A DNA stretch of 64,000 nt, taken from NCBI GenBank assembly GCA_006503475.1, contig RSEH01000003.1, positions 186,001 through 250,000 of the forward strand. Reading direction: 5' to 3'. The position numbers and the translations under genes were made by a program. Below the pieces are notes generated by a model that was not told the origin of the DNA, searched no databases, and saw only the letters and a program-made list of their open reading frames with translations. Shown piece by piece: positions 20,401-64,000 of this stretch (position 1 is the stretch's first letter; every line of letters begins with the position of its first letter). The DNA comes from Stentor roeselii (taxonomy: Eukaryota > Ciliophora > Heterotrichea > Heterotrichida > Stentoridae).

Positions 20401-23400
20401 AAATCCAGCATTGAAAATATTTTAAAGCTTCAAGATTTTGTATCAGTTTACTTTCCTGAGGTCTATGACGTGAATAAACTTTCAGAAAACTTGAAAAACA
20501 ACCAAGAAAAACAAGACTTAAACGAAGTAGATAAGTTGTTTTGGATTGATTTGAAATTTATTGAGGAGTTGTTGAAACTTTTCTCAAGTACCAAGAATTA
20601 CATCATGCAAAACCTTATCTTGAGGATTTTGATGAGATGTTTTAGTTTAAGAAGACAGATGTTAAGAGCGTTGAACAAACTTAATCTGATCACGAATTCA
20701 AAAGATGCAAAAGTTTTTAACTGGGTTAAAGTAAACATCATCATTTTTACTGAACTAGTCGACCAGGCTGACATGTGGATCAGTTCAGATAAATCAGAAA
20801 AAAACAACGAACAAGGACTAGTAAAATACAAGAAAACAATAGAAATCTTAAAATCTATCAAAAATATTTTACTTGAACACTCAACAATCAAGGATCAAAA
20901 AGTTAAGTTAGGCACTTTAAAATCAATTTCAAGCTTTAGACAAAATTTGATGATACATTTAAACCTCCATGTGAAAATCATTTACTTCATCAGAGACCAT
21001 CTTCATCAACTATCAGAAGTTTATGACGACGCTCAGACCGATGAGGAAAGAAAAACTCGTAAACGTCATCTGAAATTATTTCGTCTTTGCTTTGGACTAC
21101 TCACTGATTTTGTCAGAGGCAATAAAGACACCCAGAAAATCCTTCACAGGTACCTCCAGATCTTTATAAGGGATCTTAAGATGAAGCTAAAACAAATGAA
21201 ACTTATTGTTGAAATATTTCGAAATAACCTGGAACTTTGTAATCAAATCACTGAAAAATTTCTTCACTTTTTTATAAACCTTATCGAAACAGAAGGACGT
21301 CAACAACGCTTTTTAGAACTTTTTCCTGTCATTCAGCGCGCAGATGAAAAAGTGATTCATGAAAACCAGAGACTTGTTTTTAAAGTACTGGCACAGAATC
21401 CAAACTACAAGTTTTTACTTTATATCGACGAAAACTACAAATTTGTTTTTGAGTCAAATAACAACCATTTCAACCCTAACTATAAAGACATGCCAGTTAA
21501 ATATCATTGCAAGGTCATTGAAACCATGGCCTGCTGCGCGATGAAACCGAGTGAAAATATTTACTTAATTGAAGCGAAATGTCAGAAAATCTTTCAAGTT
21601 TCAATGATTTTTAAAGCTCTTGATGACACTGAACTGAAAATCACAATGTCACAGTCGATGAGAATCCCATTATTGAAACTTTTGTATCATACTTACTTTG
21701 AAAGTGACAAGGGACTCGACGAGATGTTTAGAAACCCTTATTTTATGACTTACATAAAAAAACATACAGAAATCACTGACGGTTCTCCGAAGTTCATAGA
21801 AGTCATGATTGATATTCTTTCAAAGTACTGTAGTCGATTCACTGGAGCTACAAGGCCAAACAATGAAACCACAGAAGACCTGATCATTATCGAAAAGTAC
21901 CTCAAGACTCTTCCACATTCCTTTGATGGCTTCTCTGACATGCAAAAAACAATAAAAAATTTGGAAGGTCTTATCAGTTGTTTTAAAATTAACTTTCCGA
22001 TTCCTGAAGTCAGTCTAGAAAAGCAGATTAGTCAAAATGCTACAAATGCAGAAAATGAATTCAAAGAAAATTGGGAAAAACTTAAATCAGAACTGATCAA
22101 GAAGGACACTTATAAGAAATATCTCAAGGAAGAAAAAGCATCTCTTCTAAGCATGATTGTTAATATCGACAAATATCTTCAAACTCGCAATTTTCCTGAT
22201 TTTTTAGAGCAAATTGTGAGTTATATTCGACAAGCTCATCACAAAAACTCTTCAGTGCAGATCTTGAATAACAGCATCAACTTCATCATCACTATTTTAT
22301 CAAAAAACATAAAAAAAGAAGAAGAAAAAAACCAGGTAACAAAGCAATTCATTCAAAATACTCTCTGCAGTTTCGGACTGGTTAAAATAATTCTAAGCCT
22401 GATGTGCGAAAAGGATATAAATGAAAAAGTCTACAACCGCCTCGTCCACCTCTCAACAGAAATGCTTGATGGTGGAAACACGAAAGTTCAAAACGAATTT
22501 TACAAATATTTTATCACCTCCGAGCATTCTGAACAATTTTTCAAAAAGATTTACTTTTACCTCAATGCTCAGAAAGTAACAAGTAAAAAAGTCTCAGTAG
22601 TTTATAAGAAACAATCAAACAACCTATATAAAATCCTGAAACTTTTACAACTTCTTTGTGAAAATCATAATTTAGACCTTCAGACTTATCTTCGATATCA
22701 AGAAAAGTCAAACAACTCTTACAACATCATAGAAGCTGTTGAGATGTTATATGAAAGGTTGACTATTGAAAGATCTGAAAGTTCTTTTCTAGTCTTTTCG
22801 AAGTGCCTTGACACTTTAACTGAAATGATTCAAGGTCCTTGTGAAAAGAATCAAGAAGAACTGACAAACAGTAAATTTCTAGACACTTCAAATAATTTCT
22901 TAAAAATCGATCAAACCAAACCAGACTCGAAAGATTTTGAGCCAAATGCAGATGGAAGTGAAAGAATGCGGGATTGGATGATTGTTCATTTAAAATACAA
23001 ACTTTCAATTACATTGTTAAGTCTTCTGGAGATGAATAGAAATGAAGATATCATTTCGAAGATGTCAAGAATTTTCGAGAAGCAAACAATTAACGATAAC
23101 TTGAAATGGATTTATAAGTCTTTTGAAGATAATGGCCAAACTGAGTTCAGAAAAGAGATTTTCGGTCATTATGAAGGTATTGAAAAGATTAACCTCAGTG
23201 AGATAAAAAATGACCCGAAGAAGATAGCGGATTACATGTGTATCATTGAAATGGGGTTTAATCTTTTTCATTTAAAGAAGTATTTAAAGGACTATGATAA
23301 CAGAGCGAAAGAATTACCACCTGACCCTGTAAAACCTCCTGTTTTTGAGAAGAAAAACCTTATCACTACTTTAAAACATTGCGGAGAAAAACTTGCAGAG

Positions 23401-24933
23401 GTCTTCAAAAAAATAAAAAGTAAAATTAAAAAAGAGGAAGATAGTAAAAAAAAAACCATCAAGAAATATAAAGAATTCTTCGAAAATCATACAGGAAGAG
23501 TCGAAATCTCATACAAAGAAAAACTGATTCTCATTTATTTCATTTTAAGACCTGAAGCTTTATTTCTAACAAAAGAAGTCCAAGAAGAATTCCATAAAAC
23601 AGTAGACAGGTCTTCAGAAAAATCGAAACTTCAGCACTTGCAACTTGAGACCAAAACTCTTCGATCTAAAATAAAAAAAGAGCAATGGCTGATAATCCAC
23701 CTTCGAAAATACCCTGTAATTTCCATGGTAATCGCGAATATCCACTTATGGTCTTACCTGACCTTCACTTTAACTATTCTCTTGAACTACATATTGATAG
23801 CTTCATACCACATGCCTTATAAAGACGACGTCGAGCCTCAGCTCTGTTTAAAAACAGACAAATACGCAGAATGCACAAGTCAAGCTTCAAAAACAGAAAC
23901 TTCAAATCTTTTCCTAGTCCTTGGAATCCTTCATTTCATTTTTTCAGGCCTGGTTTTTTTCTTCCATGCGTTGAAGATGGGTCCAGGTATTTTCAAGAGC
24001 AATTATAAAAAATATGTTTCTAAACAAAACTCTTCTTTTCGAAGTCTCAGAATAACTGTTTCTGTGATTTTAACTGCATTGAACCCGATGATTTGTTATT
24101 ACTTTTTAACTGGAATTGTTTCATTGATAGCTGTTGTTCAAAGACTTTACGGCCTTTACTGCATTCAAATGCTTGACATTATTTTCAGGTTTCCCAGTTT
24201 ATTGAATGTGGTGAAGTCGATTTACTATTCAAGAAAAGCGCTTGTTTTGACATTTGTCTTTAATATCGTGATTATTTATTATTTCACTCTTTGGGGGTAC
24301 TCCAGGTTGAATGAGTTTTACGGAGGTCAATGTCCGAATCTAAGAGTTTGCATGGCGAAGACTTACGACCGCGGACTTAAACTTGGAATGGGTTGGGTGT
24401 TTTTACCAATGGAGCCAGGAACTTATAAGGTCGAAAGGTTTTTCTTTGAAAATTTGTTTTATATCGTCATCTTTACTTGCATGATGAACTTCATCAAGGG
24501 TATCATTTATGACGCTTTCTTTGTACTTCGAGATGAATCCAGTTTGAATTTATTTGACAGGGAAAATCATTGTTTTATTTGTGGCTTGGATCGGGAAAGT
24601 ATAGAAAAAGGCTCTGGAAATACCTTCGCTTATCACACTCAAAGTGAGCATAATATGTGGAACTACGCTTTTTATATGATGTATGTCTTGAAAAAAACCC
24701 AGACTGAACTCACTTCTATTGAAAGTTACGTCAAAGATATGCTTAAGACAAATAATATTTTGTGGTTTCCTCAGAAAAACAGCGTTTCGATAAAGAAAGA
24801 AGAAGAACCTGTCGACTCAATGACAAAAGAAATCGAAGAACTCAAGTTAGCAGTTTTAAAAGTTCAAGAAGAGATCAATGAAATCAATCAGCTTATTTCA
24901 GATTCTGAGGGAAAAACAAATGAACAGCAATAG
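17413..24933 (+). CDS. IP3-receptor/ryanodine-receptor-family calcium channel
   Basis: The spliced gene (intron 19162-19176) encodes 2501 residues. The N-terminus has IP3R-type suppressor/MIR domains (about 1-380; IYYGSCIFFEF, ITYGSQIQLQHWHSKK). RIH and RIH-associated helical regions follow (LLKLLATICVF..NQELIHE after the intron). Six membrane helices start near residue 2100, then come a pore region and the Zn-binding tail CFICGLDRESIE..HTQSEHNMWNY and YVKDML, closely like IP3R. It should release Ca2+ from internal stores. The selectivity filter GGGIGD of animal channels appears as LGMGWV near residue 2316, so ion selectivity may differ. Six more frames are absent; stop TAG. Confidence 0.88.
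19162..19176 (+). other. 15-nt intron in IP3R-like gene
   Basis: GTAACCCTTACTTAG, A at position 10. Its TAG is in frame, so without splicing the protein would end at residue 587, far short of the channel domain. Confidence 0.92.
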
Positions 24934-36248: not shown

Positions 36249-36977
36249 ATGAAAGTCTTACTGGTGCTTTTCTTCAGCTCTCTTGGATTCACTCAGGCTT
36301 CTCTTCAAGCTTGTAGTAAGGGGACCTGGCAGCCCTCAACATCAGTTTACCCATTTTCATTGATGACTCTTCCTTACTCCTACGACTATTTGCAGCCTTT
36401 CATTTGGTCTCAGATCGTGACAGCTCATCATGACCACCATCATCTGGCATACGTGACCAAATTAAACGCTTACCTTGCCACAGCTCCTGCCCTTCAAACA
36501 ACATCTCTCGTTGACTTAGTCTCAGGAGCCGGTAGCAATTTGAGTCTTCAGAAGTTTGCAGGAGGTGCTTATAACCACAACCACCTCTGGTGGCAACTCA
36601 CGAACCCTTCATGCGCTGCTCCTTCTCCTGTCGGACAGCTTGCCACTGATATCAACACCGCTTTTGGAAACTTTAGTAATTTCCAAAATCAGTTCAACAC
36701 TGCCTGTGGAGGACTTTTTGGCTCTGGATGGGCCTGGCTTTGTGCTGACTCTAATAAGAACTTGATTATCACTACCACTGCTAATCAGATGAATCCTTTG
36801 ATGACTGCTACTTGCAATCCGATTTTTGGAAGTGACCTTTGGGAACATGCTTATTATTTACAGTATGTTTGGAATAAGGATAACTACTTTGCTCAGTTCT
36901 GGAATGTTATTGATTGGGTACAACTTGGGTACTTTTATGATAATTATGTGTCGAAAGGACAGCCAATTCCTTTTTAA
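36249..36977 (+). CDS. secreted Fe/Mn superoxide dismutase
   Basis: The ATG at 36249 is preferred because it gives a clean signal peptide ([17 protein letters not shown]); an upstream ATG at 36231 adds a short run before it. The 242-residue product is a full-length SOD. Metal ligands are H60 ([11 protein letters not shown]), H110 (NHNHLWW), D196 and H200 ([12 protein letters not shown]). [10 protein letters not shown] is conserved. The signal peptide implies a secreted or vesicle enzyme, unusual for the mitochondrial/cytosolic norm, as in some ciliates. Fe or Mn preference is not settled by sequence. Stop TAA. Confidence 0.9.
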
Positions 36978-37711: not shown

Positions 37712-40700
37712 ATGGTCGATCGAGAAGAACCTTTGCTAGGCACGGCATCAGAAGTAGGAAATGACTTAGAACAAACAGAGGATCCTTGCCTAAGGAACCT
37801 AGAGCAAGTAAAAGCCCATATCGAACGTGAAATTACTCATGAAAAAATTAGAAACATCTTTGAAAGATCGATAATAAATGGACATTCTGACTCTGTATAC
37901 TCAGTTTGCTTTTCTCCAGATTCCAAGTTGATTGTGTCAGGATCAAAAGATTTTTCAGTCAAAATATGGGACACTAACACAAAAGAATTATTATCCACAC
38001 TTGAAGGTCACTCAGGTATAATATTTTCTATTTCAATTTCACCAAACTCTGAGTGGATTGCATCTGGATCAGCTGATAAATCGATTAAATTATGGAGCCT
38101 TTCAAAAAAAAAAGAAGAATTCACACTTCATGGTCATTTAGATTGGATAAGATCAGTCTGCTTCTCAGTTGACTCGAAGCGCATAATATCCGGATCTAAT
38201 GATTATTCTATAAAGGTATGGATAATATCTGAACAAAGAGAGGAATTCACTCTTCTAGGACACTCAAATCGTGTACAATCAGTTTGTATTTCAGCTGATT
38301 CCAGGTGGATCGTAAGTGGCTCCGAAGACAAGTCCATTAAAGTATGGAATATAGCAAAAAGACAGGAAGAGGCTACTTTCAAAGGACATTTAGATGTTGT
38401 AAGAACAGTTTGTATTTCACCAGACTCAAAGTGGGTTGCTTCTGGATCAGATGATAATTTGATTAAAATATGGAGCATTTCTGAAAAGCGTGAAAAGTTC
38501 ATACTTAGAGGACATTCAGTTGCTGTAAGATCAATTTGCTTTTCATCTAACTCACAGTATATTGTATCTGGATCCGGTGATACTTGTATTAAAATATGGA
38601 ACTTTTCTGAAAAGAGAGAAGAGTTCACACTAAAAGGACATTCAAATTGGGTGAATTCAGTGTGTTTTTCATCTGATTTGAAGAGGATTGTATCCGGTTC
38701 TGATGATAAATCAATAAACTTGTGGGATATGACTGAAAAAAATAATGAATCCACACTTAAAGGCCATTCACATTGGGTAATGTCAGTATGGCCTTCACCT
38801 GATTCAAAGTGGATTGCTTCAGGATCATATGATTTTTCAATTCGAATATGGAATGTGGCAGAACAAAAACAAGAATCCATTCTTAAAGGGCATACAATGT
38901 GTGTAAGAACTGTCTGCTTTTCTTCTGATTCCAAATGGATTGCTTCTGGATCAGATGATAACTTAATTAAAGTATGGAATTTCAGTGAAAGTAAAGTTGA
39001 GTTCACTCTTAAGGGACATACTGATTGGATATTTTCAGTGAGCTTCTCAGTTGATTCGAAGATGATTGCCTCTGGCTCAAAAGATTTTTCAGTTAAGATA
39101 TGGGACACTGAAAAAAGAGTAGAATTATTCACATTCTTAGGACATCTAGACCGAGTATTTTCAGTTTGCATCTCGCCTGACTCTAAGTGGGTTGCATCTG
39201 GATGTGGAGATAAGTTAATAAAAGTATGGAATATTACCGAGAAAAAAGAAGAATTCACTCTTAGAGGACACACTGATTCTGTACTTTCAGTCTGCTTTTT
39301 CTCAGACTCAAATCAGATAATATCAGGATCAAGTGATACATCTATAAAATTGTGGAGTATTGAACAGAGACAGGAAGAATTGACACTTCTTGGACATCAA
39401 GGTGGTGTAAATTCAGTTTATCTCTCATCTGATTCAAAGTGGATTGTGTCTGGATCTAGAGATAATTCAGTTAGACTATGGAATATCATTGAGAAACGAG
39501 AAGAGTTCATACTTCAAGGACATCTCAATTTCGTGAATTCAGTTTGTATCCTTCCTGATTCCAAGTTGATTGCATCTGGATCCTTTGATAATTCGATTAA
39601 ATTATGGAATATGACTGGTTTTGAACAACTTGAGTCATGTCTTGACAGAGATTCAGTGTATGATATGAAGTTTTATACGAAGTATGAATTTGTTAATGCG
39701 ATATCAATGATCAATTCCAGTCGCTATTCAAATATAGGACTTAATGGTATTGGTTTACTTCTTGGGAATAAGAATTATACACCTTTGCACTTTGCTGCTC
39801 TTAGTGGGCAGACTGAGGCGATAAGAGCATGGTTTGACATTTTAAAACAATCTGATATAAAAGTTCCAATAAAAGCTGATACTTATGGCAAAAGTCCTAT
39901 TTATTATTCTATAAAGAAACAGCATCAAGTGGCCACTGATCTTCTTCTTAATTACATTGTCGAAATGACTGGAAATGCTGAAGATTCATTTAAAATACAA
40001 AATTTCTATGCATTAAGAAACGATATCAAGATTATCATAGAGAACTCATCACCAAATCTTTGTGAATTTTTGAGTAATTGTCTTTATTCAAGTAAGGTAG
40101 AGAAATATGGAATAGCAAAACAAAGAATGGCATTTATTCCTCGATTTTCACCTGATTACGACTATTTTGTTGAAACTTTTGAGACGCGAGAACAAGAGCA
40201 TCTTACAGTTAAATCTTCTTACTTCACTCTTCCTTTTTGTATAGGCTCGAGTGATTCGATATCATTCCTAGAAGCACTTTTAAATTGCACAGATAAAGAA
40301 ATATATAGAGTTCAACTCATCAAAAAGTTTGTTCAATGCAGATGGGAAGCCATTCTAAAGTTGGTACTTTTCTATTCACTTCTAAACTGGATCAATCTTG
40401 CATTAATAATATTAGAACTTAGTCGATTATCGGGATTACTTTCATTGATATCCCTAGTCATTGTTAATTCAACTTTACTTTTATGGGAGATTCTTCAATT
40501 CAAAGCAATAGGAATAGACTATTTCAAAGATTTATGGAATGATATCGATATCCTAAAAATATTCATCACTATCATCTGGGTCACTCTCAGAAATTTAAAT
40601 TTTAAAATGGAATTGCTTAGTGTACTAGTTGTTATACTAGGTGGCATAAGAGGACTTACTGGTTTTAGAGCATTTGAAAGCACTCGATATTATATAAGAC

Positions 40701-41344
40701 TTATTTTCGAATCACTTAAAAAAATTTTTTCATTTCTAATGATATTTGCTTACACTACATTATGTTTCGGGCTACTAAGCATAGTATCTGGAGAACATGA
40801 AGTTCAAGTAACTTTCGAAAAATTGTGGATAGATCCTTTCAGTCTATATTTTGGGCCACCAGATAGCTTGAAATTGAACTCGTTAAATATGGTATATCTC
40901 TCATTTTTAATAGCTTTTCTTGTGAACATTGTGCTTATGCTTAATATGATCATTTCGATTTTATCTGATTCTTATGACGAATTTCAAGTATTCGCTATTT
41001 ACTGTGATTGCAGAGAAATGACTGAAGTTATTTTGGAAATTGAACAGATGTTTTCTATCTCAACAAGAATTAATAAAGATATGTTTTTTCAAGTTTGTGT
41101 TAACTACTATAAGGAGGAGGACGATAATTGGCAAGGTAAAGTTCTCGATACTCGGGTAGAGCTGATTAAAAATCGAGCAATGATAAAATTAAATTGTGAG
41201 AAAATCGAAAGATTTGAGGAGAAAATTGATACCAAAATCAGAGAAGTTGAAGAAAAGATCGAAAGTGATATTAGAGGAGTTGAAGACAGTATCAAGCAAG
41301 TGTATACCAGGCTTGAAGAAATTCATACCCTTCTTAATAAGTAG
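37712..41344 (+). CDS. WD40-ankyrin-TRP-type cation channel
   Basis: This 1210-residue protein starts at ATG 37712 (TATAAATG). Fourteen WD40 repeats of 42 residues (about 57-633; each GH..V.SVCFS.DSK.I.SGS.D.SIK.W) would make two seven-bladed propellers. Ankyrin-like sequence follows (about 673-750; NYTPLHFAALSGQTEAI). A six-helix ion-transport domain lies at about 880-1090 (WINLALIILEL, FSFLMIFAYTTLCFG, LMLNMIISILSDSY), with the pore near FEKLWIDPFSLYFGPPD. A coiled-coil tail (IREVEEKIESDIRGVED) follows. TRP/polycystin-like channels are tetramers; the WD40 part is an unusual N-terminal partner. Confidence 0.85.
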   Translation: MVDREEPLLGTASEVGNDLEQTEDPCLRNLEQVKAHIEREITHEKIRNIFERSIINGHSDSVYSVCFSPDSKLIVSGSKDFSVKIWDTNTKELLSTLEGHSGIIFSISISPNSEWIASGSADKSIKLWSLSKKKEEFTLHGHLDWIRSVCFSVDSKRIISGSNDYSIKVWIISEQREEFTLLGHSNRVQSVCISADSRWIVSGSEDKSIKVWNIAKRQEEATFKGHLDVVRTVCISPDSKWVASGSDDNLIKIWSISEKREKFILRGHSVAVRSICFSSNSQYIVSGSGDTCIKIWNFSEKREEFTLKGHSNWVNSVCFSSDLKRIVSGSDDKSINLWDMTEKNNESTLKGHSHWVMSVWPSPDSKWIASGSYDFSIRIWNVAEQKQESILKGHTMCVRTVCFSSDSKWIASGSDDNLIKVWNFSESKVEFTLKGHTDWIFSVSFSVDSKMIASGSKDFSVKIWDTEKRVELFTFLGHLDRVFSVCISPDSKWVASGCGDKLIKVWNITEKKEEFTLRGHTDSVLSVCFFSDSNQIISGSSDTSIKLWSIEQRQEELTLLGHQGGVNSVYLSSDSKWIVSGSRDNSVRLWNIIEKREEFILQGHLNFVNSVCILPDSKLIASGSFDNSIKLWNMTGFEQLESCLDRDSVYDMKFYTKYEFVNAISMINSSRYSNIGLNGIGLLLGNKNYTPLHFAALSGQTEAIRAWFDILKQSDIKVPIKADTYGKSPIYYSIKKQHQVATDLLLNYIVEMTGNAEDSFKIQNFYALRNDIKIIIENSSPNLCEFLSNCLYSSKVEKYGIAKQRMAFIPRFSPDYDYFVETFETREQEHLTVKSSYFTLPFCIGSSDSISFLEALLNCTDKEIYRVQLIKKFVQCRWEAILKLVLFYSLLNWINLALIILELSRLSGLLSLISLVIVNSTLLLWEILQFKAIGIDYFKDLWNDIDILKIFITIIWVTLRNLNFKMELLSVLVVILGGIRGLTGFRAFESTRYYIRLIFESLKKIFSFLMIFAYTTLCFGLLSIVSGEHEVQVTFEKLWIDPFSLYFGPPDSLKLNSLNMVYLSFLIAFLVNIVLMLNMIISILSDSYDEFQVFAIYCDCREMTEVILEIEQMFSISTRINKDMFFQVCVNYYKEEDDNWQGKVLDTRVELIKNRAMIKLNCEKIERFEEKIDTKIREVEEKIESDIRGVEDSIKQVYTRLEEIHTLLNK
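37876..39610 (+). repeat. 14 WD40-coding tandem repeats of about 126 bp
   Basis: Fourteen diverged in-frame units, each coding one GH-to-W/D blade. The DNA similarity explains the long open frame seen on the other strand here. Confidence 0.9.
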
Positions 41345-42777: not shown

Positions 42778-44256
42778 ATGGACTCAAGCGAGAAGAAGTT
42801 ATTCGTCCACGGAGGTTTAAACGAATCTATGCTTGTACAATTCATATAGAGTTCAGAAATCTCAATCACTTACACCTACAAGAACAAAGACTTAACAAAA
42901 CTAGTAAAAGAAACTGATCGCACCACAAAGCAAGCCATAAAAAAACTCATCTGCGTGTCAACAGTTTGCATTCTGTTCATGATCGCTGAAGTGATAGGAG
43001 GGTACCTAGCGAATTCCTTATCAATAATGACAGATGCTGCCCACATGTTTTCTGACTTGTGCGGATTCGGCATTTCTATGGCTTCTTTGTTCATAACAAA
43101 AAAGGAAGCCACCCGGCAAATGTCCTTCGGGTATCATCGAGCTGAAGTGATTGGGGCAAGTCTCAGTGTTTTACTCATCTGGGGACTCACTATTTGGCTA
43201 CTTGCTGAAGCCGTTCAGAGGTTTATCAACCCTCAAGAAGTTGATGGATTAATTATGTTGATTGTTGCTGGGGCTGGACTACTGAGCAATATTGTGATGG
43301 GGAAAATTTTACATTCACATGGAGGACATTCGGATGATCATCGGGTCTTGACTCATGTTATGCTACACCCTGAGGATGCTCCAAGACTTACTAGTCTTGG
43401 AAGGGCTGAGAGTATCAGAAGGGCTACTTTGAGGAGGCAGTCGAAGAAGGGAAGGAAGGAGATTTCTGATGATCATGAACATCATGACCATGAACATCAT
43501 GACCATGAACATCATGACCATGAACATCATGATCATGAACATCATGATCACGACCATGAGCATCATGATCACGAACATCATGATCATGAACATCACGATC
43601 ACAGCCACGGACATCACGATCATGAACATCACGACCACAGCCACGGGCACCACGATCATTCCAAAGGCAAGAAAGAGCACAAGCACGATCACGGTCACAG
43701 TCACGGTCACGGTCACGGCCACAGCCACTTCGGACACAGCCACCACGGCCACAATCACGAAAACATGAACATCCGAGCAGCTTTAATCCACGTAATCGGA
43801 GATTTATGTCAAAGCATCGGTGTAACCATCGCAGGACTCATAATATTCCTAAAACCCGATCTTCACATAATCGACCCGATTTGCACTTTATTATTTTCAG
43901 TGATAGTCTTTTTAACAACAGTGCCAATAATCAGAGACTGCGTTAAAATCATCATGGAAGGGACACCAAGTGAAATAAACATTGAAGATTTAATAGAAGA
44001 GCTAAAAGAAGTATTTTTTAAATAGGCTGAAGGAGTTGTTGAAGTTCACGATCTGCATGTTTGGACTTTGAGTATGGGAAAATATGCTTTAAGTGCTCAT
44101 ATTATTTCGAAAAACCCTGAAATTTCTTTAATTGCTTGCACGCAGATTTGCCAAGAAACCTATGAAATCAAACATGTTACTTTACAGATGGAAAAAATTA
44201 ACACCAGTTATGACTTACAATGCTCTGTTGGCCTTCATTCTAAATATATTGATTAA
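42778..44256 (+). CDS. ZnT-type zinc transporter with His-rich loop
   Basis: Two 15-nt introns (42835-42849, 44011-44025) give a 482-residue protein. It starts at ATG 42778 after AATAAATG. Six membrane helices carry the cation-diffusion-facilitator ligands: HMFSD in helix 2 and HVIGD in helix 5. Between helices 4 and 5 is a very long His/Asp loop (about residues 210-320). Splicing at the second site joins EELKE to AEGVVEVHDLHVWTLS, the conserved cytosolic HDLHVW motif. Family members move Zn2+ out of the cytosol into vesicles with H+ exchange. Confidence 0.9.
42835..42849 (+). other. 15-nt intron in ZnT gene
   Basis: GTACAATTCATATAG, A at position 10. It ends in an in-frame TAG; removal joins MLQ-frame to SSEIS and places the true start at 42778. 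Confidence 0.8.
43471..43760 (+). repeat. His-rich tandem repeat (GATCATGAACATCAT-type units)
   Basis: Repeats of about 15 nt (coding DHEHH and variants) fill the cytosolic loop of the zinc transporter. Similar but unequal units mean slippage followed by drift. Confidence 0.85.
44011..44025 (+). other. 15-nt intron in ZnT gene
   Basis: GTATTTTTTAAATAG, A at position 10. Its TAG is in frame; splicing makes the conserved HDLHVW segment continuous. Confidence 0.92.
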
Positions 44257-46343: not shown

Positions 46344-48887
46344 ATGGGAAAATGCATCTCAGTTTCCAAGTCCAAAAAAGAACTTACAAGCACAATCATA
46401 CAAGAGGACCCAGATGACTCTATTCCAGAAATAGAATCAGCGATAGTTATTAATCGTATTCCTGGAGGTCAATCGAAGGCTTTGATCGAGGAAGCCTTGA
46501 AGGGTCAGTACCTTTTCAAAGGTCTTTCAGTAGAAGACATGGAGATGATGTACTCAAAGCTGAAGTACTACGAAGTGCCAGCTAACGAAGTAATATTCGC
46601 TCAAGGTTCAATAGGAAAGAAGTTTTACATAATCGAGAAAGGTCTAGTAAAAGTCCAAATCAATGGAAAATTAAAAAACGAGTTAAAACCCGGTGAGACC
46701 TTCGGCGAAATGGCTCTTCTTACAAGTGCAGAACGCCGAGCAACTCTAACAACAGCCATTCAGACCTACTTATGGGGCATGGGAAGAGAACAATTCCTAG
46801 CAGCAGTTCGAGTGATCAACAAAAAGAACTTCGAAGTAAACAAAAACTTCATCAGCAACCTAAGCATTTTTTCCTTCTTATCCGAAGAAAAACTTGTAGA
46901 ACTCACAGAATCTTTAGTCCAACACGACTTCGACCACAACAAAAGAATCATCTGTGAAGGCGACAAAGGCCTTTTAATGTACGTCGTCAAGTCAGGAAAC
47001 GCGGTGGCTAAAATCAACTCAGTTGAAAAGTACCGCATCAGTAAAGGTGAGATGTTCGGGGAAAATGTCGTGATCGGGGATAACTTGATTAGAAATATCA
47101 CTGTTTACTCTGATGGGGACACTTCTTTGTTAAGTATTTCTCGCGAGGACATCATCAGAATCATCGGCGAGAACTTTAAAGAAACTGTTTATCGCGCTCA
47201 GGCGAAGAACTCTTTAAACTCGGATTATTTCACAAGAAAACTCGGTGATGCGATGATCATGCAAATTATTGATAAAATGGAGTGGAAGTCAATAAAGCCC
47301 ATGGAAGTCGCGATAGATAAAAGCGAGTTAGAGGAAAATATTTTTGTTTTATGTGTTGGGTCTTTAGTGGGGAAAGAAATCAACTTTTCTCATTTTGAAG
47401 TTTTTGGCTTTAAAATGAAAATGATTAAGAATGAGGATCAGCTTGTTGCTGGAAGTGAAGTCGTTTTAGGAATATTGAAAAAGATGGAATTTGAAAAAAT
47501 CTATAAAGCGCCTTGGTCTAAGTTGAAGTATGAAGTGAAGGTCATGATGCTGTTGAGCAGGGTCGACATGTTCGCTGGTAAAAGTCCGAATGACTTGAGG
47601 TACATCGCTTCTCATTCAAGGCTCCAGGAATATGATAAAAATGAAGTCGTTTATCGATATAATGACGAGGCTCTCAGCATGTTTATCATTAAGAAGGGAA
47701 GTGTTGAGATTACTCATAATGGAAAAACTATCAGAGTCATGGGAAAATATGATATCTTTGGAGATAAGTGCATTGATGAACCTCTTAGGACTAACACTGC
47801 CCGCACACTTAGTCCTTCTGTGTTCGTTGTTATTGATACCTCGGATATTCAGGACTTGATTGATGATACCACTTGGAAAGTTCTTAAACGAAAACAAACT
47901 TTTTTATGTAATTTCAGCCTTAATCATGTGATGATGATTAAAATGATTTCGCAGAATAATCATAAGTTGTACTTTCATTGTAAAATCAGCAATCCTGATA
48001 TCTTTGCAACGTGTACAGTTATTAAAAAGAATTACTATGAAAATGAGCAGAAGTTTAATACACTTGTGCAAGAAAAGACTATTTTGCTTATGATGGAAAG
48101 TAGATATATAATCAACTTGTTAAAATCATTCTGTGATGATAAATATGTTTATCTTGTTTATGAATTTGATGAGTCTGTACCACTTTCTACTATTTTGAGT
48201 AGAAGACCTGGGGAGGACTATGCAAAGTTTATTGCTGCTTGCTTGTATATACTTCTCAAGTCGTTTCATGATAAGGATATTATTTTCAGAGGGATTAGTC
48301 CGAATACTATTCGGATCAGCTCTAATGGATATCCTATTATTGATGATCTTAGCACTGCTAAGATTATTAGGGGGAGGACATCTACTATCATTGGAGATCC
48401 GTTGTTTCTAGCACCTGAAGTGCATCTGGGAAAACCTTATACTCGATCTGCGGATTTGTGGAGTTTGGGAATTTTGATTTACTTGATGCTTTATGATTCT
48501 TATCCATTTAATATTACTGATGGAGATGACCCTGTCCAAATATTTGAAAAAACTCAAGGCGAGCTGAAATTTCCTAGTGAGACAAAATTCGTCAGAGGAA
48601 AAGAAGTGATAAGTGAACTTCTCAGAAAAAACTCAAAAGAAAGACTTAATCTTGAAAACCTTCGCTTTTCGCGATGGTTGGATTCAATTGATTGGGAAAA
48701 ACTGATGAAATTTGAAGTGATCCCTGCACACAAGCCAACAATCTCACAAAAATCAAAGCAGGTAAAAAACCAAAAACAAATACCCTTGGCGAGATATCTT
48801 AACGTAACACATATATAGGAAAACTTTCCAGATGACTATGTAAATCCTCGAAAAAGCTTAAAGTTTAACTGGAAAAAGCACTTTTAG
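46344..48887 (+). CDS. PKG-like protein with degenerate kinase domain (pseudokinase)
   Basis: After removal of the intron at 48804-48818 the protein has 842 residues. It has four cyclic-nucleotide-binding-like domains (about 52-165, 172-280, 290-400, 402-508). The first keeps the cassette FGEMALLTSAERRATLTT; the others are degraded (FGENVV, FGDKCIDEPLRTN). The C-terminal kinase fold (about 525-782) has lost the catalytic Asp (HRD is FRG in IFRGISPNTIRI), the DFG (DDLSTAK) and the glycine loop. The tail after the intron (NENFPDDYVNPRKSLKFNWK) matches PKG's FxDYxxP AGC tail. So the frame is a PKG relative without expected kinase activity. Confidence 0.85.
48804..48818 (+). other. 15-nt intron near the PKG-like C-terminus
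   Basis: GTAACACATATATAG, A at position 10. Splicing past its TAG adds the 22-residue AGC-like tail, which supports that it is removed. Confidence 0.88.
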
Positions 48888-49054: not shown

Positions 49055-49265
49055 GAAAACTCTTTTTGCATAAAAAGTCTTTTCTCATAAGTCTTTTCTC
49101 ATAAAAAAATTTTTTTGCATAAAAAACTCTTTCCAAATAAAAAAGTCTTAAAAAAGTCTTTTCACATAAAAAGTCTTTCCTCATAAAAAAGTCTTTCCTC
49201 ATAAAAAAGTCTTTCCTCATAAAAAGTCTTTCCTCATAAAAAGTCTTTCCACATAAAAAAACTCT
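49055..49265. repeat. minisatellite, unit about 18-19 bp
   Basis: About ten units of CATAAAAAAGTCTTTCCT and variants. Only the right-hand units are near identical, so the array is still evolving at that side. Confidence 0.85.
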
Positions 49266-49339: not shown

Positions 49340-49362
49340 ATGGTAAAATAATAATTTGAATG
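49340..49362 (+). repeat. copy 2 of a 23-bp direct repeat, holds the next start codon
   Basis: ATGGTAAAATAATAATTT followed by GAATG; the last ATG is the start at 49360. Confidence 0.8.
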
Positions 49363-55911: not shown

Positions 55912-58038
55912 TTATCTGAAATAATTTGACTTGCAGTTTGTTCTAACACAAAATTCTGGAGGAACACCATGTGACTCTGCTATTGACTGACAAGGACCTC
56001 CATACTTATCCAGCCTGCCCATAGACATGATCTAAATAAGCCTTACTGTCGCTTTGTAATTTTTTCTCTTGGCTACGATATCAAAAGTCGGGAACCTATT
56101 ATAATTGCCTTGAACATAAAACCCTTTCAAGCTAATCAAAACATTCACTTGAAGTTTTAACTGCTTATATGAATTAGTCCCAAATTCAATTTTAAAGATT
56201 TCATGCGTTTTATTGACTGACAAATGGTAAACGTTATCCAGTCGGTCCAACTTAACCCTATCACAGTACTTCCCTTGAGGATGTAAAGGAAAGTTATAAG
56301 ATAACTTGTTAACTTCTTCTTCAGTCCTCTGGCGAATGATTTTTAAGACGTTTTTAATGATTTTTCTATAATTTTTCAATAAATAAAAGTTAGAACATGG
56401 ACAAAAAAGCATATCTGACTTAAGATCTTCGCAATTCCTAGAATAATTCGCGATTTCACTGAGCCAATCAATACTTTTCCTATTATTCTCTTGAATGCCA
56501 ACTAATGAAAGAATAGTTTTTCTAATATCCGGCTTTGAAGTGAACCTTTTTCTGTTTTCTTCAAGAGCATGATAAGAAAAAGGAAATTGATCCAAAAGAC
56601 TTTTATCAGAAATCACAAACATTGAAGGCAAAGTAGTTTCTTTATAAGCATCAAGCGAATTGTACCAGTCACCATATCTCATTCCATGATCCGCATGAAG
56701 AAATAGAAAAACTTCAGTAAAATTTTTCGTCATTTCGAAGAAATCCTGAAGAAAACTCGTGATATCTGAGTCTAAAGTAGCAGCATGTTGACCAGTACGT
56801 TCATGTCCTGCATTGAGATGAAGATAAATCCACATATTAGTTTCTTTATACATCTCAACAAGTCTTAAAGTATAGTTCAACATGTAAACATGAGTTTGAT
56901 GAGGGCCAAGGCATCTTTGCTCAACATTGACCTTCTCCGTTTTGACCCCTCCATAAACATCAACAAGACAATAAAACTGGCGAATTGCGTAGTCAATGTT
57001 GAGGTCTTCACCAAGAATCCTAGGAAACCATTTATCACAGTCATCAAATCCCATAAACGTCAAGAAACCTTTTTTCTTCAGGTCAGACCAAATAGCGTTC
57101 TTTCCTAGCAAGTCTTTTCCTTCTTTTCCATGAAGCTTGTTCATATAATCAACTCCTCCAAAAATTGGGATCTGGTTATGAACTGAGTCATCTCCAAAAG
57201 TACTATGCATTAAAAAATCATAAACAGCCATATGAGGAAGCAAGTCTTGACTTTCATTTAAAAACTTGACGATTTTAGGAAGTTTCCTGTAAAAATGACG
57301 TCTTGAAAGAGAATCGAGAGTCAATAAAAAAATTATTTTAGGTTTAGTTCCATTTAAGGTCTTCAAATTTCTATCAAATAACTGCTGATCAAAAATCGGA
57401 GCCATGTCCGCATGTTGGATTTCCTTTGGATCAATATCGTATAGTTTAAAATCTTCATCATCTGAAGGATCCAGTCTTGGAAAACTTTTATTCGAGCAGA
57501 AGCCAAGTCCAAAGCTGGAAGGTTTGACAGGTTTTAGTTGATATTTCAGTAATTTAAAGTCCTTTACTGAAGGCTTTAACATTAAATTTTTTCTGTGAAG
57601 AGGTCCTTGAAAATAATATCCGGACTTATCTTCTGGGCAGTTCATTGATATTGTGTTTGAAGTTCGGTTTAGGGATAGTAAGGAATCTGAGATTCCTGTT
57701 ATTGTTGAGCAGGCTGGATATTCAAAGTCTGGAAATACTAATTTGCCCTCTGAGACTGAGTAACCGAAAGACTCTGGAGCGCAGGAATACTTTGAAAGGT
57801 TTAAGTCGCTTGTTTCGTCTATTTGAAGAGAGGTGAAATTGTAAGGATGATTTTCATTTGGAAGGAGAATTACTTCTTCGTAAGACTTTTCTGGAGAATG
57901 CTTCGGGGTTAGAAGAGTGTAGTCTTGATTTGGGTTTTTTAGGGAATGATTTAGTTTCCAGAAAAAGATTTCTTGATTAGTGAGGAAAAGAAAGCTAAGA
58001 ATTGGATAAACTGTAATTAAACAAGCAAATCTTAGCAT
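55912..58038 (-). CDS. DUF229 sulfatase-fold protein
   Basis: With the intron at 56032-56046 removed, the protein has 703 residues. It starts with a signal anchor (CLITVYPILSFLFLTNQEIF). KIIFLLTLDSLSRRHFYRKL and LHADHGMRYGDWYNS are the alkaline-phosphatase-fold marks of the DUF229 family. The extra exon ends in RLDKYGGPCQSIAESHGVPP with more Cys (FCVRTNCKSN), a likely disulfide tail. DUF229 proteins are probably secreted or Golgi enzymes; no substrate is known. Stop at 55912 (TAA). Confidence 0.85.
56032..56046 (-). other. 15-nt intron in DUF229 gene
   Basis: GTAAGGCTTATTTAG on the minus strand, A at position 10. Reading through it would stop at TAG; splicing adds a 38-residue Cys-bearing tail. 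Confidence 0.88.
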
Positions 58039-58540
58039 TTTCTTTATTATAGACTATCTTAATAGTTTAATTATGGGATGATTTTATGAGCTTAAGTGTA
58101 GAATTATCATAAAGGTTTGGGAGCATTCTTTATCAAATACATTTTATCTTTGAATAAGTGATAGATATCTTTAAGTTTTTAGAATTTTTAATCTTAAAGC
58201 AAATTTACAAAAAACTTTTTTTGATTTAAGATTGTAAATAATTCAAGTTTTACTTTATGAAAATGGTTCAGCTGTAGACTGCTTAATTAGTTACTAATTA
58301 ATAGTTTTTTTGTGATATAAAAATTTAAAGACAACTAGATCAATCTGTTTTGTAACTATTTATTTTTATAGCATCCCTATTGATTCTTTTAATCAATATA
58401 TTCTTAGGTAATTTATATACTTGAAGTTAAATGGCAAGCATAATGTTCTAAACAAGTGGTATTTGGAAATTTAATGATCAAGCTATTTTAAGTGTTTTAC
58501 AACTATGTGATCATAAAAGTTGCAAAAAATTTAAAATAAT

Positions 58541-58636
58541 TCATAGTTTTCCTTCAATTATTTGAATGTTTCGGCCAAACTTCATAGATAATTCGTCTAT
58601 TCTGTTATTTACTTGGCTCAGCTCACCCAAGATGCT
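58541..58636 (-). pseudogene. short coding scrap resembling a coiled-coil tail
   Basis: 32 codons reading SILGELSQVNNRIDELSMKF. It is like the tail of the WD40 channel at 37712 in build only (amphipathic helix). No start and no longer frame, so it is probably a fragment of a lost gene. Confidence 0.35.
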
Positions 58637-59449
58637 TAAGCTTTAGTCTTATCCCAACTTTGACTCTAATATTCCAGTTTCTTCATTCTTATACGAATGA
58701 AAACTTAACTCTTATAATAAACTAGTTTTCTATTCACCAAAAGTATTCAAATAAAAATCCCTAATTCATTTTTAGCTTTTATAAACAGAAATTGATTAAC
58801 TTCTATTAAGTGTCTTGTCATTTCTTTGAAATTCTAATACTTTTAAACTTAAATTCATCAAAAGCATATTAAAGGGCAGAGATGCTAAAGTTCAGAATCA
58901 AATAATAGAAAAATAGCTAAAGCCAAAGTTATTTTGAGTATCAAGAGTCAAAGAGTACATTCTTTCAAAGTATCCATAAACTAGCCTATATGAAATACTC
59001 TAGAGTTTCAGAAAAAATATTAAAACGAACAGCTATCTAAAACTTTAGTAAATTTTACTATGGAATAATACGATAAATTTGTTTAAGGGTAAAAATATAT
59101 AAGATTATATATTTTTATCTTATATTCAAAACTTCATCTTAACACTGTGATTAGATATATCTCTAAGTCAAAAAATCTTGAATTATCTATTGATTGGTAT
59201 TGTACTTACAATTCAAAATATAAAAATAGATAATTTCTTTGAAAATAGTCAAATACTTGATTTTAAATATTCCCTAAATATTATTGATTTAATTTTGTTC
59301 CTTAAATAATTAAGTAGTTTCTCAAAGCATTCCTTAGAGTTCATTTTTACACAAGATAGTTTTCATATATAAAGCCATTATAATGTCTATATTTTTAGAT
59401 TTGGCTTACATTGTTATTTCATAAAACTTCAATAAAAGAACTTTATAAC

Positions 59450-59474
59450 TGGCGAAATTATTTCATATATAAAT
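59450..59474 (+). promoter_or_regulatory. PLAC8-type promoter block, copy 2
   Basis: GGCGAAATTAT then TATATAAAT before ATG 59475, same order as the block at 54772. Confidence 0.5.
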
Positions 59475-59825
59475 ATGTCAGACTTTTATGAAAGTCTTTT
59501 TGGGTGTTTTGACGATTGTGGAATATGCTGCATTGGGTTATTATATCCTTGGTGCTTACAAGCATGTGCTGTTTCAAAATCAAAACCAAACGAGTCATGG
59601 GTTCTGCCTCTGTGCACAGCTATATACCTTCCATGCTTCGGCATTGGAATGTGCATCAATAGATCTAATATTAGGACAAATCTAGGTATGCAAGAATCCC
59701 AAGTATCAGACTTTCTCATTTCATGGTGTTGTTCTACGTGCGCTGCTTGCCAGGAATATAGAGAAGTTACCAAGAGATATAATGATCATGCCCAAAATGT
59801 AGGCATGAAAAGTGGATTTGCATAG
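59475..59825 (+). CDS. PLAC8-family cysteine-rich protein, copy 2
   Basis: This 116-residue paralogue of the gene at 54796 shares FYESLFGCFDDCG, AVSKSKP, CINRSNIRTNLGM and CQEYREVTKRYNDHAQN. Some of the Cys of copy 1 are lost (CCIGCFCPC is CCIGLLYPW). So the two copies have drifted apart. Role unknown; in the family PLAC8 proteins are membrane-attached. Stop TAG. Confidence 0.85.
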   Translation: MSDFYESLFGCFDDCGICCIGLLYPWCLQACAVSKSKPNESWVLPLCTAIYLPCFGIGMCINRSNIRTNLGMQESQVSDFLISWCCSTCAACQEYREVTKRYNDHAQNVGMKSGFA

Positions 59826-60069
59826 TTAAGATTATAGATTTTAGTTTTTAGGTTGAATATTATTGGAATTTTCAAGGAAGTTAATATAGCATTTAGTTAT
59901 TTCTAAGGAATTAAATATGAAATTTCTGTACAATTAAGTTATAAACCATTTTTATTTTTATGAGAATTGACAATCTTATTTCATTTTGGTAACTGAAATT
60001 CTTTGTTGATATTTAAATCTATGTATCAATCGTTTCTTATTTAGTAGTCAAATTGAATTAGATTCATAA

Positions 60070-60198
60070 TTTTTTAGACTCAGTGCAGAAGATGGTATTC
60101 AAGTAGATATTGAAAATCCAAATATATCTTATATAGAAAGTAGATCCGCAGTTGTTAAGAGATGTCGAAAGGATAAAGAAGAGAATGCTATCTTATAA
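60070..60198 (+). pseudogene. short coding-like scrap
   Basis: 42 codons with protein-like composition (SAEDGIQVDIENPNISYIES, then RSAVVKRCRKDKEEN) end in TAA. No ATG and no upstream frame, so it is probably an old 3' exon or gene fragment. Family not recognised. Confidence 0.35.
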
Positions 60199-61628
60199 CT
60201 ATCAAACTTAAAAAGAAGATAGATTGATAAATTAATTTATTGAACATACTAACAAACAATCATTATTATAATAACTACTTAGTAACTTATATTGATTTAG
60301 ATCAGTACAGATATGAAAATTAAATATAAAATTATTCCTTTATTATTTGACCATACTAAATAAATTGTACTGATACAATAAAAGGATCATTAAATACAAT
60401 TTCAAATAAGACCTTGAGTGAATAAAATCTATTCAATCTTAATTATTGAGCGTGAATTGGAGAAGAATTATATATAACTTCGATAACTTACTGAATAGAT
60501 TCCTGAATTTTTAAGTCAGAAATATTTAGATTTAATATATTTTCAATAATTTTCTATACAAGTAAATATTAATATTATCTAATCTCAGGAAGTTTTGGAT
60601 TACAGTTGCTATTTATTGAGATTAATATCGAAGATCATCTCCAAATGTATAATATGTAATCGCAGAAGTCAGTCAAAATTTAAAACAGGTAGAATATTAT
60701 TCAGAAAATATACATATAAATAAAATATTGTTTGAAGAAAATTGTGAATTAATAATCCAATCATCTAATTTCATTCACTATATACTCTCAAATATAACTT
60801 TTTGAAAATTTGTATTTAATATTTTAAGTTATTTTAATGGTTGTGGTCTGAAATTAAATTATCCACTTAATTTAATTTCAAATTAGCATAGCGGCATTAT
60901 TTAGAAAGAGTATAGGTGATATTAGCTATTAATATTTAAAAAAATTTTACATCAAGGTTTCAATTACAATAGGAAAAATTCATATAATTAACATTTTATT
61001 AGGTGAAAACTTCATTTTAAAACTAATTTTTCGATCATAAGAATTTATTGAATAACAAAAACCAGCATTTAATAATTAATATTCAGTTGTTGTTTTGAGG
61101 TAGATTACTTGGATTCATTTATAAAAATTTAAAAAATTATTAGCGTTTTTAAATACCATCTTTTATGTGATTATATCTTTAAATCATATATTAAATATCC
61201 TATTCTTTTTAATCATAAAAGAGAAAATTTATTATTTTAACTAGCTCTTGCGAAATATACTTATAGATTGCATTAGTTTAGTTCAATTTAATGGTGATTG
61301 TTTATATTTAATCTGAAAAAGTAGTATTTATAAATGAATTAACAGTTCTTTTTAAGGTAACACTCATGTTAAAATACTTTTAAATGTTAATGAGATGATT
61401 TTAAGTATTTCATATTCCTTTGATATACATAGGTTTATAATATTCTTTGAGTATTGACATAATATATATTTATGAATCTTTAAGTTAACAATAATTTCAG
61501 GAATAATTAACTCGAAAATAGAAATTACTTTATCAATTTGAATTTCTGGTATTAATTTTTTATAATTCAGCACCTATATTCCTTGTTTGATATCTTTCAA
61601 ACATTTATTACAGTTATTGCAATGATAA

Positions 61629-61921
61629 CTACAACCATTCCAATTTTCTAGATATTAAGCTCATAGCTTTGATTTCAGATAAAAGTGACTTGTACAGTTC
61701 CACTGACCTATTCACTTCTTTTCCTTTAGATTCTATTTATCCTCTTCTTAACAGTTAATGTTTTGCTTAAGATGTTGGCGATATCTATAAGGAAATAACT
61801 TTTCTCTTGCTTTACTTGATTCGAATAAATATATTTCCATTCTTTTTTCTTTTAAAAAAGTAATTTCTTGCTCATTTTTTATAAAGTTATGGTAGGAAGA
61901 AACTTTGAAAAAAATTGACCG
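61629..61921 (-). pseudogene. decayed coding region, unknown parent
   Basis: Two protein-like runs lie near each other in different frames: IKNEQEITFLKEKRMEIYLF with SSKAREKLFPYRYRQHLKQN, and KGKEVNRSVELYKSLLSEIK. A third frame nearby holds CSYHCNNCNKC. They are unlike the surrounding AT-rich DNA. Probably one broken gene with several breaks; the family is not recognised. Confidence 0.35.
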
Positions 61922-62251
61922 TCAGTACTTATTGGTGTTGTAAAAGTAGAGGATTTTTCTCTGAAGCCATACTGTAAATAACAAAAATAATTTTTTAAGC
62001 TGATTCATATATTTTATCTTACAGTTCATGAGTCTCCACTACAGAAAATTGCTTTATATGTCACAGCCGTACGTAATCTTGAATTATTAATAAGAATAAA
62101 GTTTTTATTGATGAATTTGTTATTGTTTAATATAAAACTTGATAGATTAAAACACTTTATGATTTCCCTAGATATTACTTTATAGAATATTAAAATGAGA
62201 ATTTATAAAATAGAGAATACTTATTTTTTAACTTTTAGATTTAATAAGATT

Positions 62252-63524: not shown

Positions 63525-64000
63525 CTAACAACTTCTATAGTTCTTCGCTTCTTCGATGTTGAGATTCCCTTTGATTGAGTCTTCTAAAGTCTTAGCCGAT
63601 TTGAACATGGTAGCTTCATTTTTTAATGGTAATAGGCCTTTGAATTTATGTAAAATGGAAATTACTAATCTATTATCCAAGCTAACTTCCCTTTATAAAT
63701 TGTTTCTGGGTATCGAGATGTCCATCTGCTTACATATTCATCATAGACTTCGCCAGGCTGGAATTTCTCGAATTTATGAGTCTTCAGGTCCCAAACGTTG
63801 ACTTAGTAATTGATACAAACTTCAATAATTTTTACCTAAGTATCGATTACATAGATCTAATTTGTCGTTTACTGCCTTTTTAGTAAGATACAGGCTTCGT
63901 TATAGATTACGACCTTCGTTGTATGTTACTTCCTTTGTTTTTTATACTCCCTGAATTATTTTCACAATCTTCATTTGGATTACAGTCTTGGTAAAATTTA
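63525..64000 (-). CDS. C-terminal part of a gene with a micro-exon array (5' end outside window)
   Basis: Read on the minus strand. After splicing the array at 63802-64000, the frame runs T-I-G-E-V-P-A-I-Y then VKIIEVFNVWDLKTHKFEKF and QPGEVYDEYVSRWTSRYPET. It either ends at a TAG (63665-63667, after KGKLAWIID) or, through a tentative 17-nt intron at 63670-63686, continues through LHKFKGLLPLKNEATMFKS to a TAG at 63525-63527. The second is preferred because that downstream stretch has coding-like GC and composition. No family is recognised. Confidence 0.55.
63802..64000 (-). other. tandem array of 15-16 nt introns with single-codon exons
   Basis: Nine complete introns lie at 63969-63983, 63951-63965, 63933-63947, 63914-63929, 63895-63910, 63876-63891, 63857-63872, 63836-63850 and 63802-63816; a tenth starts at 63987 and would end one base past the window. 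All run GT to AG with A six bases before the end. The exons between them, 5' to 3', are ACT, ATT, GGA, GAA, GTC, CCT, GCA (3 nt each), then ATCTAT and a 19-nt exon at 63817-63835. Confidence 0.8.

Follow-up and report, generated by a model that had tools for sequence, protein, structure and literature searches.

Candidate minimal introns in tandem, separated by one-codon exons, at the end of a Stentor roeselii contig segment

In Stentor coeruleus, 92.81% of the introns are 15 nt and 7.19% are 16 nt in length, the branch A is located at position 10 or 11 in 95.9% of them, and the introns are 75.63% AU (PMC9505925). Minimal introns of 15 or 16 nt have likewise been described in Blepharisma stoltei (PMC9942806), as in the locus presented here. 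The snRNAs of the major spliceosome are present in Stentor, SR proteins are undetectable, and a possible absence of exon skipping has been suggested (PMC9505925). According to the same source, Stentor genes mostly contain one or few introns and those with more than eight introns are of uncertain function; 12 of its 13 passages that touch on exons or neighbouring introns were covered and make no mention of tandem introns with one-codon exons.

In this study, 64,000 nt of Stentor roeselii DNA (assembly GCA_006503475.1, contig RSEH01000003.1, positions 186,001 to 250,000 of the forward strand) were analysed; this whole stretch is referred to as the window. On its minus strand, nine complete GT..AG elements of 15 or 16 nt were found in tandem (63983-63802) and are regarded as candidate introns. 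A tenth element (intron 0) is clipped at the window edge; 14 nt are visible, and its length is presumed to be 15 nt. The minimal U2 introns of Stentor coeruleus are likewise 15/16 nt, GT-AG and AU-rich with the branch A six from the end (PMC9505925), and the array elements agree with this published class in length, in GT..AG ends and in the branch A, which is base 10 of the 15-nt and base 11 of the 16-nt elements. On the evidence of the sequence, we consider it probable (about 0.68) that a single protein-coding gene of this heterotrich ciliate contains at least ten minimal U2-type introns in tandem, the first eight of them set apart by exons of one codon, and that these introns are removed by intron-defined, sequential splicing.

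Layout and splice signals of the array

The features are summarised in Table 1. When the cut intron, the exon ACT, the nine introns and the remaining exons were put together again, the minus strand from 64000 to 63802 (199 nt) was recovered with every letter identical. The nine complete introns, the cut tenth and the seven 3-nt exons of the preliminary description were therefore reproduced exactly in letters and coordinates. The 3-nt exons occur in the order ACT, ATT, GGA, GAA, GTC, CCT, GCA on the minus strand, followed by a 6-nt and a 19-nt exon, and the string predicted after joining of the micro-exons is ACTATTGGAGAAGTCCCTGCAATCTATGTAAAAATTATTGAAGTTTTCAACGTT. Five of the nine complete introns are 15 nt and four are 16 nt long. 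Eight of the nine visible exons are multiples of three (seven of 3 nt and one of 6 nt), whereas intron length differs by one base; within the first eight units, changes in length are confined to the introns and the 3-nt exons are constant. Phase 0, which had been claimed for the array, applies to the first eight complete introns, and the last one (63816-63802) is in phase 1.

Table 1. Candidate introns, predicted exons and open segments at the array (in order along the minus strand)
Feature	Position	Strand	Basis or remark
Intron 0, cut	63987..64000	minus	ends AG, A at -6; first G would fall beyond window
Micro-exon ACT (Thr)	63984..63986	minus	sequence, splice simulation
Intron 1, 15 nt, GTAATCCAAATGAAG	63969..63983	minus	if retained, without in-frame stop
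Micro-exon ATT (Ile)	63966..63968	minus	sequence
Intron 2, 15 nt, GTGAAAATAATTCAG	63951..63965	minus	sole GTG donor; if retained, without in-frame stop
Micro-exon GGA (Gly)	63948..63950	minus	sequence
Intron 3, 15 nt, GTATAAAAAACAAAG	63933..63947	minus	GT..AG and A at -6
Micro-exon GAA (Glu)	63930..63932	minus	sequence
Intron 4, 16 nt, GTAACATACAACGAAG	63914..63929	minus	GT..AG and A at -6
Micro-exon GTC (Val)	63911..63913	minus	sequence
Intron 5, 16 nt, GTAATCTATAACGAAG	63895..63910	minus	GT..AG and A at -6
Micro-exon CCT (Pro)	63892..63894	minus	sequence
Intron 6, 16 nt, GTATCTTACTAAAAAG	63876..63891	minus	GT..AG and A at -6
Micro-exon GCA (Ala)	63873..63875	minus	sequence
Intron 7, 16 nt, GTAAACGACAAATTAG	63857..63872	minus	GT..AG and A at -6
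6-nt exon ATCTAT (Ile-Tyr)	63851..63856	minus	sequence, translation
Intron 8, 15 nt, GTAATCGATACTTAG	63836..63850	minus	GT..AG and A at -6
19-nt exon, GTAAAAATTATTGAAGTTT	63817..63835	minus	holds GT..AG look-alike in first 16 nt
Intron 9, 15 nt, GTATCAATTACTAAG	63802..63816	minus	phase 1, splits T / TC
Post-array ORF (NVWDLKTHKF...LAWIID)	63665..63801	minus	continues spliced array to TAG
Coding-like segment	63692-63528	minus	0.24 bits per codon, near real-gene median
Coding-like segment	63503-63411	minus	0.23 bits per codon, near real-gene median

The sixth base from the end is A in all nine complete elements, and also in the visible part of the cut tenth. The donor is GTA in eight and GTG in one, and every element ends in AG (9/9). 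Indeed, the earlier claim that each intron carries A at -6 like the solitary 15-nt introns of the window holds for 9/9, and four single introns share the mark. These four 15-nt GTA..A-6..AG elements join open frames (8520-8534, 19162-19176, 42835-42849 and 44011-44025); they were chosen from 15 candidate 15/16-nt joins in the window and are taken, judging by their sequence, to be real.

The A+T content over the nine introns was 70.5%, slightly under the published mean of 75.63%, and the difference in G+C between the micro-exons (11/27) and the introns (23/94) was not significant (P 0.14). Introns of 16 nt are over-represented (4/9 versus the published 7.19%, P 0.0025), and the four stand side by side (chance 0.048).

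Inside the array, 15/16-nt GT..AG spans occur ten times, namely as the nine introns and as one look-alike of 16 nt (63835-63820, minus), which lies directly after intron 8 and is without A at -6. When this look-alike was removed as well, the frame shifted into a stop. It represents a natural control for the branch A requirement. The other GT..AG spans in the array are five of 19-20 nt, all with A at -6, and the next ones, examined up to 45 nt, are at least 31 nt. Consequently, a strict 15/16-nt rule that includes the branch A permits a single parse of the array, whereas a laxer ruler would make it ambiguous.

The window as a whole contains 33 uninterrupted frames, partly overlapping, with a length of 150 codons or more. 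It is eukaryotic and ciliate-like in character, with CFAP74-like, CFAP97-like, RyR/IP3R-like, kinase and cyclic-nucleotide-binding genes among its long frames. Thirty stop-to-stop frames of at least 200 codons end in TAA (16) or TAG (14) and none in TGA, which is compatible with the rare use of UGA in Stentor, where it is the stop in about 9% of genes (PMC6879139). On the plus strand, two long frames at 17413-24933 together with the 15-nt intron 19162-19176 resemble one very large gene, the second frame of which matches RyR/IP3R domains. A stretch at 58000-62000 between ordinary genes is AT-rich (22-27% G+C) with few long open frames, and a small Cys-rich frame lies within it (59436-59822, plus). 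Several tandem repeats were also observed: an 18-nt repeat of the AAGTCTTTCCTCATAAAA type at 49069-49260, just upstream of a 1488-aa frame at 49360 and by eye outside the 15/16-nt GT..AG kind; repeats of the CATGAACATCATGAC type at 43469-43753 (plus) in a cation efflux family gene (42850-44025), putatively His-rich in the frame of that gene; and 126-bp repeats at 38381-38709 (plus) in a WD40-repeat gene (37712-41344).

Reading frame and downstream segments

When all nine introns were removed, 60 open codons were obtained (TIGEVPAIYVKIIEVFNVWDLKTHKF...LAWIID), extending to the TAG at 63667-63665. The post-array ORF has no Met; if it is coding, it would be entered from upstream through the array. 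Its codon score equalled the median of real genes and was reached by 9.8% of the open AT-rich stretches, so that this score is of modest power. Without splicing, the three frames through the array contain 3, 9 and 4 stops, as expected from the earlier statement that every unspliced frame is stopped; that statement needs to be narrowed in that introns 1 and 2 may stay without closing the frame. Only 4 of the 512 retention patterns remained open (none retained; intron 1; intron 2; introns 1 and 2), and retention of any single intron among 3-9 introduced a stop.

The codon model, which had been trained on the long frames of the window, was also applied to the nine codons that make up the 3-nt and 6-nt exons. 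These codons gave 0.47 bits per codon, corresponding to the 90th percentile of real genes. This value was reached by 0.4% of stop-free wrong-frame stretches, by 0.5% of open AT-rich stretches, by shuffled letters in 0.4% (P ~0.004) and by triplets of the AT-rich stretch in 0.5%. The micro-exon codons are thus coding-like at about P 0.004. Nine stop-free triplets arise in 44% of random intergenic draws, and their openness alone is no evidence.

The preliminary description had the open frame run into ordinary coding sequence. The frame indeed continues for 44 codons past the array; the TAG at 63667-63665 then ends it, and broken frames follow. The two coding-like segments downstream (Table 1) lie in a frame different from that of the post-array ORF and are split by three stops. 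As open stretches of the AT-rich region at 58-62 kb reach such scores in 8-10%, these segments are likely, though less than certain, to be coding. No 15/16-nt intron with A at -6 joining them was found. Judged by eye, a 17-nt GT..AG span at the first downstream break would join the frames, but it is without A at -6 and outside the class; the second break is explained by no 15/16-nt element. Reading TGA as a sense codon opens neither the array nor the downstream breaks.

Homologue searches with the pieces of the array gene gave no match in Pfam or NCBIfam, and the best PDB matches (E 0.55 and 0.86) were taken as chance. The first of these, ribosomal protein L27 matched by the spliced peptide (E 0.55), was dismissed as chance given that no Pfam match was obtained. 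No homologue was found among the viral contigs, no paralogue of significance within the window (best E 0.27), and no RNA family in the window at gathering scores. Either the TAG at 63667-63665 is the true end of the gene, or the array sits in a decaying copy.

The latter alternative, a pseudogene whose introns were once or are still spliced with no functional protein as the outcome, is unlikely. Such decay would account for the downstream segments, with their change of frame, their three stops and the lack of a canonical intron to join them, and past the neighbouring gene, 4 kb of AT-rich sequence (58-62 kb) hold few long frames. However, GT, A at -6 and AG are intact in all nine introns, the exon codons are still coding-like in score, the window is rich in long uninterrupted frames, and the TAG may simply be where the gene ends.

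A very unlikely alternative is that one long intron or block is removed as a whole, with its donor located at the window end or past it and its acceptor at 63802, so that the small units are decoys or relics. The part upstream of the array does lie past the window end, and the stretch that starts with donor 1 and closes with acceptor 9 measures 182 nt. Against this, every annotated intron of Stentor has a length of 15 or 16 nt (PMC9505925), and a long intron would leave unexplained both the nine well-formed short introns and the coding-like codons between them.

Likeness among units and chance

The likeness of the units was compared with shuffles. Over all nine introns, the mean identity at free positions was 0.40 versus 0.37 in shuffles (P 0.095), and the burst of copied, introner-like introns put forward earlier as an explanation is therefore not borne out; near-identical copies were absent from the array. 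Neighbouring introns showed a weak excess (0.45 versus 0.36, P 0.035). The closest pair, introns 4 and 5, had an identity of 0.70 at free positions, which is within the shuffle range (P 0.33). The array units have splice signals in common, not sequence.

As a control, viral and prokaryotic contigs were scanned for four pattern units with 3-nt gaps. The 15-nt pattern detected 15 viral loci, all of which were repeats of alike units (lowest mean identity per locus 0.71-1.00) with at least one open frame reading as a six-residue repeat. With the 16-nt pattern, one viral and 14 prokaryote loci were detected; alike repeats were found in 14/15 (0.72-1.00), the remaining locus (L021, identity 0.42) being a run of short GTA/GTAAG repeats, and an open frame was found in 0/15 of these 19-nt-period loci. 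Consequently, openness of the frame fails to separate the 19-nt-period loci from the array, and unit identity does so. The 30 control loci are not all independent, since L004/L010 and L019/L030 resemble copies of one another. By the same measure, the array gave 0.33 over three units of 15 nt and 0.40 over four of 16 nt, a comparison that took in seven of the nine units.

These results bear on the possibility that the array is a diverged tandem repeat of 18/19 nt, coding or not, which is intron-like by its period and is not spliced. Coding repeats of 18 nt can fit the intron-plus-codon pattern exactly, as all 15 viral matches show, and the likeness of adjacent units slightly exceeds that of shuffles (P 0.035). 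Past the splice signals, however, the units have little in common, all three unspliced frames are stopped through the array, and length changes in the first eight units are restricted to introns. Furthermore, Tandem Repeats Finder called no repeat at the array. A plain tandem repeat is rejected on unit identity (0.33-0.40 versus 0.71-1.00 in 29/30 pattern-matched loci); neither the alike units nor the open frame of an 18-nt coding tandem repeat was seen in the array. The diverged form is accordingly regarded as highly improbable.

Because 15/16-nt GT..AG spans had been built into the search pattern, the real test is the tiling of the array against null models. From the 96 such elements on the minus strand of the other 63.8 kb, 0.30 elements are expected in 199 nt, versus the nine observed (Poisson P 4e-11). 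The longest chain with gaps of at most 6 nt comprised eight elements. Simulation of 400 sequences of 64 kb, half of them with the composition of the minus strand and half with that of its final 2 kb, gave a longest chain of at most 2 in 391 and of 3 in 9, and among 20,000 simulated 199-mers with the dinucleotides of the array it was 2 (gaps of 0, 3 or 6 nt). The sole other chain in the window with gaps of at most 6 nt was a pair at 11405-11437; three-element chains at 36700-36775 (gaps of at most 20 nt) and 46530-46637 (at most 40 nt) were chance-like. That chance or an assembly artefact produced the array is scarcely credible, the former being excluded as a source by both simulation sets and the Poisson count and the latter being at odds with the many long open frames elsewhere in the window.

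Splicing, origin and known systems

Taken together, the elements bear the marks of the organism's own introns, chance and a plain tandem repeat fail to explain them, and their removal opens a frame. These findings argue for the initial proposal that the array is composed of introns, so far as sequence can tell. Each intron would be recognised across itself rather than across exons, and the fixed 15/16-nt spacing of the 5' splice site, the branch A six from the end and the 3' splice site may serve as a ruler. Spliceosomes assemble anew on each intron (PMC9505925). As two of them are unlikely to fit 3 nt apart, the introns would leave successively, each removal lengthening the exon beside the introns that remain. 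Joining a donor to the acceptor of the following intron would take 33-37 nt in the close pairs and 49 nt in the last one; these lengths lie outside the 15/16-nt class, and skipping of a codon should therefore be rare unless it is assisted. The preliminary description held that the order or mechanism of removal must be special. Given that the parse is unique under the 15/16-nt rule with the branch A, intron definition operating on one intron at a time would suffice. It appears that no new machinery is needed and that the unusual part is the substrate.

That the spacing is exactly one codon suggests a repeating unit of 18 nt, which may have been either a multiplied intron plus codon or a six-residue coding repeat with accidental splice signals. 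The weak likeness of neighbours and the clustering of the 16-nt introns leave room for an old duplication history. We favour the idea that a unit of 18 nt, made up of an intron and one codon (or entirely coding), expanded long ago and that its copies then diverged, keeping only the splice signals and the codons. Independent insertion of copied introns is unsupported by the sequences of the units. More tentatively, an 18-nt coding repeat may have contained GT, A and AG by chance at 15-nt spacing and been read as many introns at once, with the array then showing that the spliceosome handles 3-nt spacing; we rate this as doubtful. In such a case, only one residue in six would remain, as a one-codon exon and with the frame kept, and the freed 15-nt parts would later drift to stops and to 16-nt lengths. 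Six-residue coding repeats of the 18-nt type do exist, as in the 15 viral control loci. If the coding-repeat origin were true, many introns would have been born in one step.

If the array is spliced as proposed, at least ten introns leave a stretch of about 200 nt with exons down to one codon. The choice of partners by a spliceosome with little beyond a fixed length to go by would then become directly addressable, together with the order in which neighbouring introns are removed and the rate of codon skipping. The array would thus put the measuring of very short introns by the spliceosome to a natural stress test, and it would offer a concrete site for studying the gain of introns in numbers. 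For Blepharisma and for Loxodes, a karyorelict, the introns of the gene sets were derived from mapped RNA-seq reads (PMC9942856, PMC11441545). Read mapping probably fails to place 3-nt exons, and similar arrays may accordingly exist unseen elsewhere.

Single tiny exons, small-exon genes and successive introns are known. A tandem array of this kind was found nowhere in the literature searched, which was covered by titles and the beginnings of abstracts and by passages on the ciliates Stentor, Blepharisma, Loxodes and Paramecium; the 2017 genome paper on Stentor and most subscription papers lie outside this scope. Among the systems compared, introners are multiplied introns, whereas the array is without sequence copies. 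Stwintrons are nested and leave by consecutive U2 reactions (PMC8469720); in the array, by contrast, the nine elements are complete and non-overlapping and no intron interrupts the splice site of another. In fission yeast, a 24-bp AGGT unit is repeated in genes and tandem duplication has been described as a source of splice sites (PMC4974935); one intron covers several duplicates in that case, whereas each unit of the array would be its own intron. In the schistosome MEG genes, most of the coding region lies in tiny symmetrical exons, the skipping of which alters few residues, and alternative splicing varies their proteins (PMC4350168); the visible exons of the array are mostly 3 nt and its introns 15/16 nt. 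Finally, microexons of 1 nt and 3 nt, as extremely short as those predicted here, are spliced in in plants and Drosophila (PMC8831610, PMC8042270). Those microexons are single or two adjacent, whereas seven 3-nt exons follow one another consecutively in the array.
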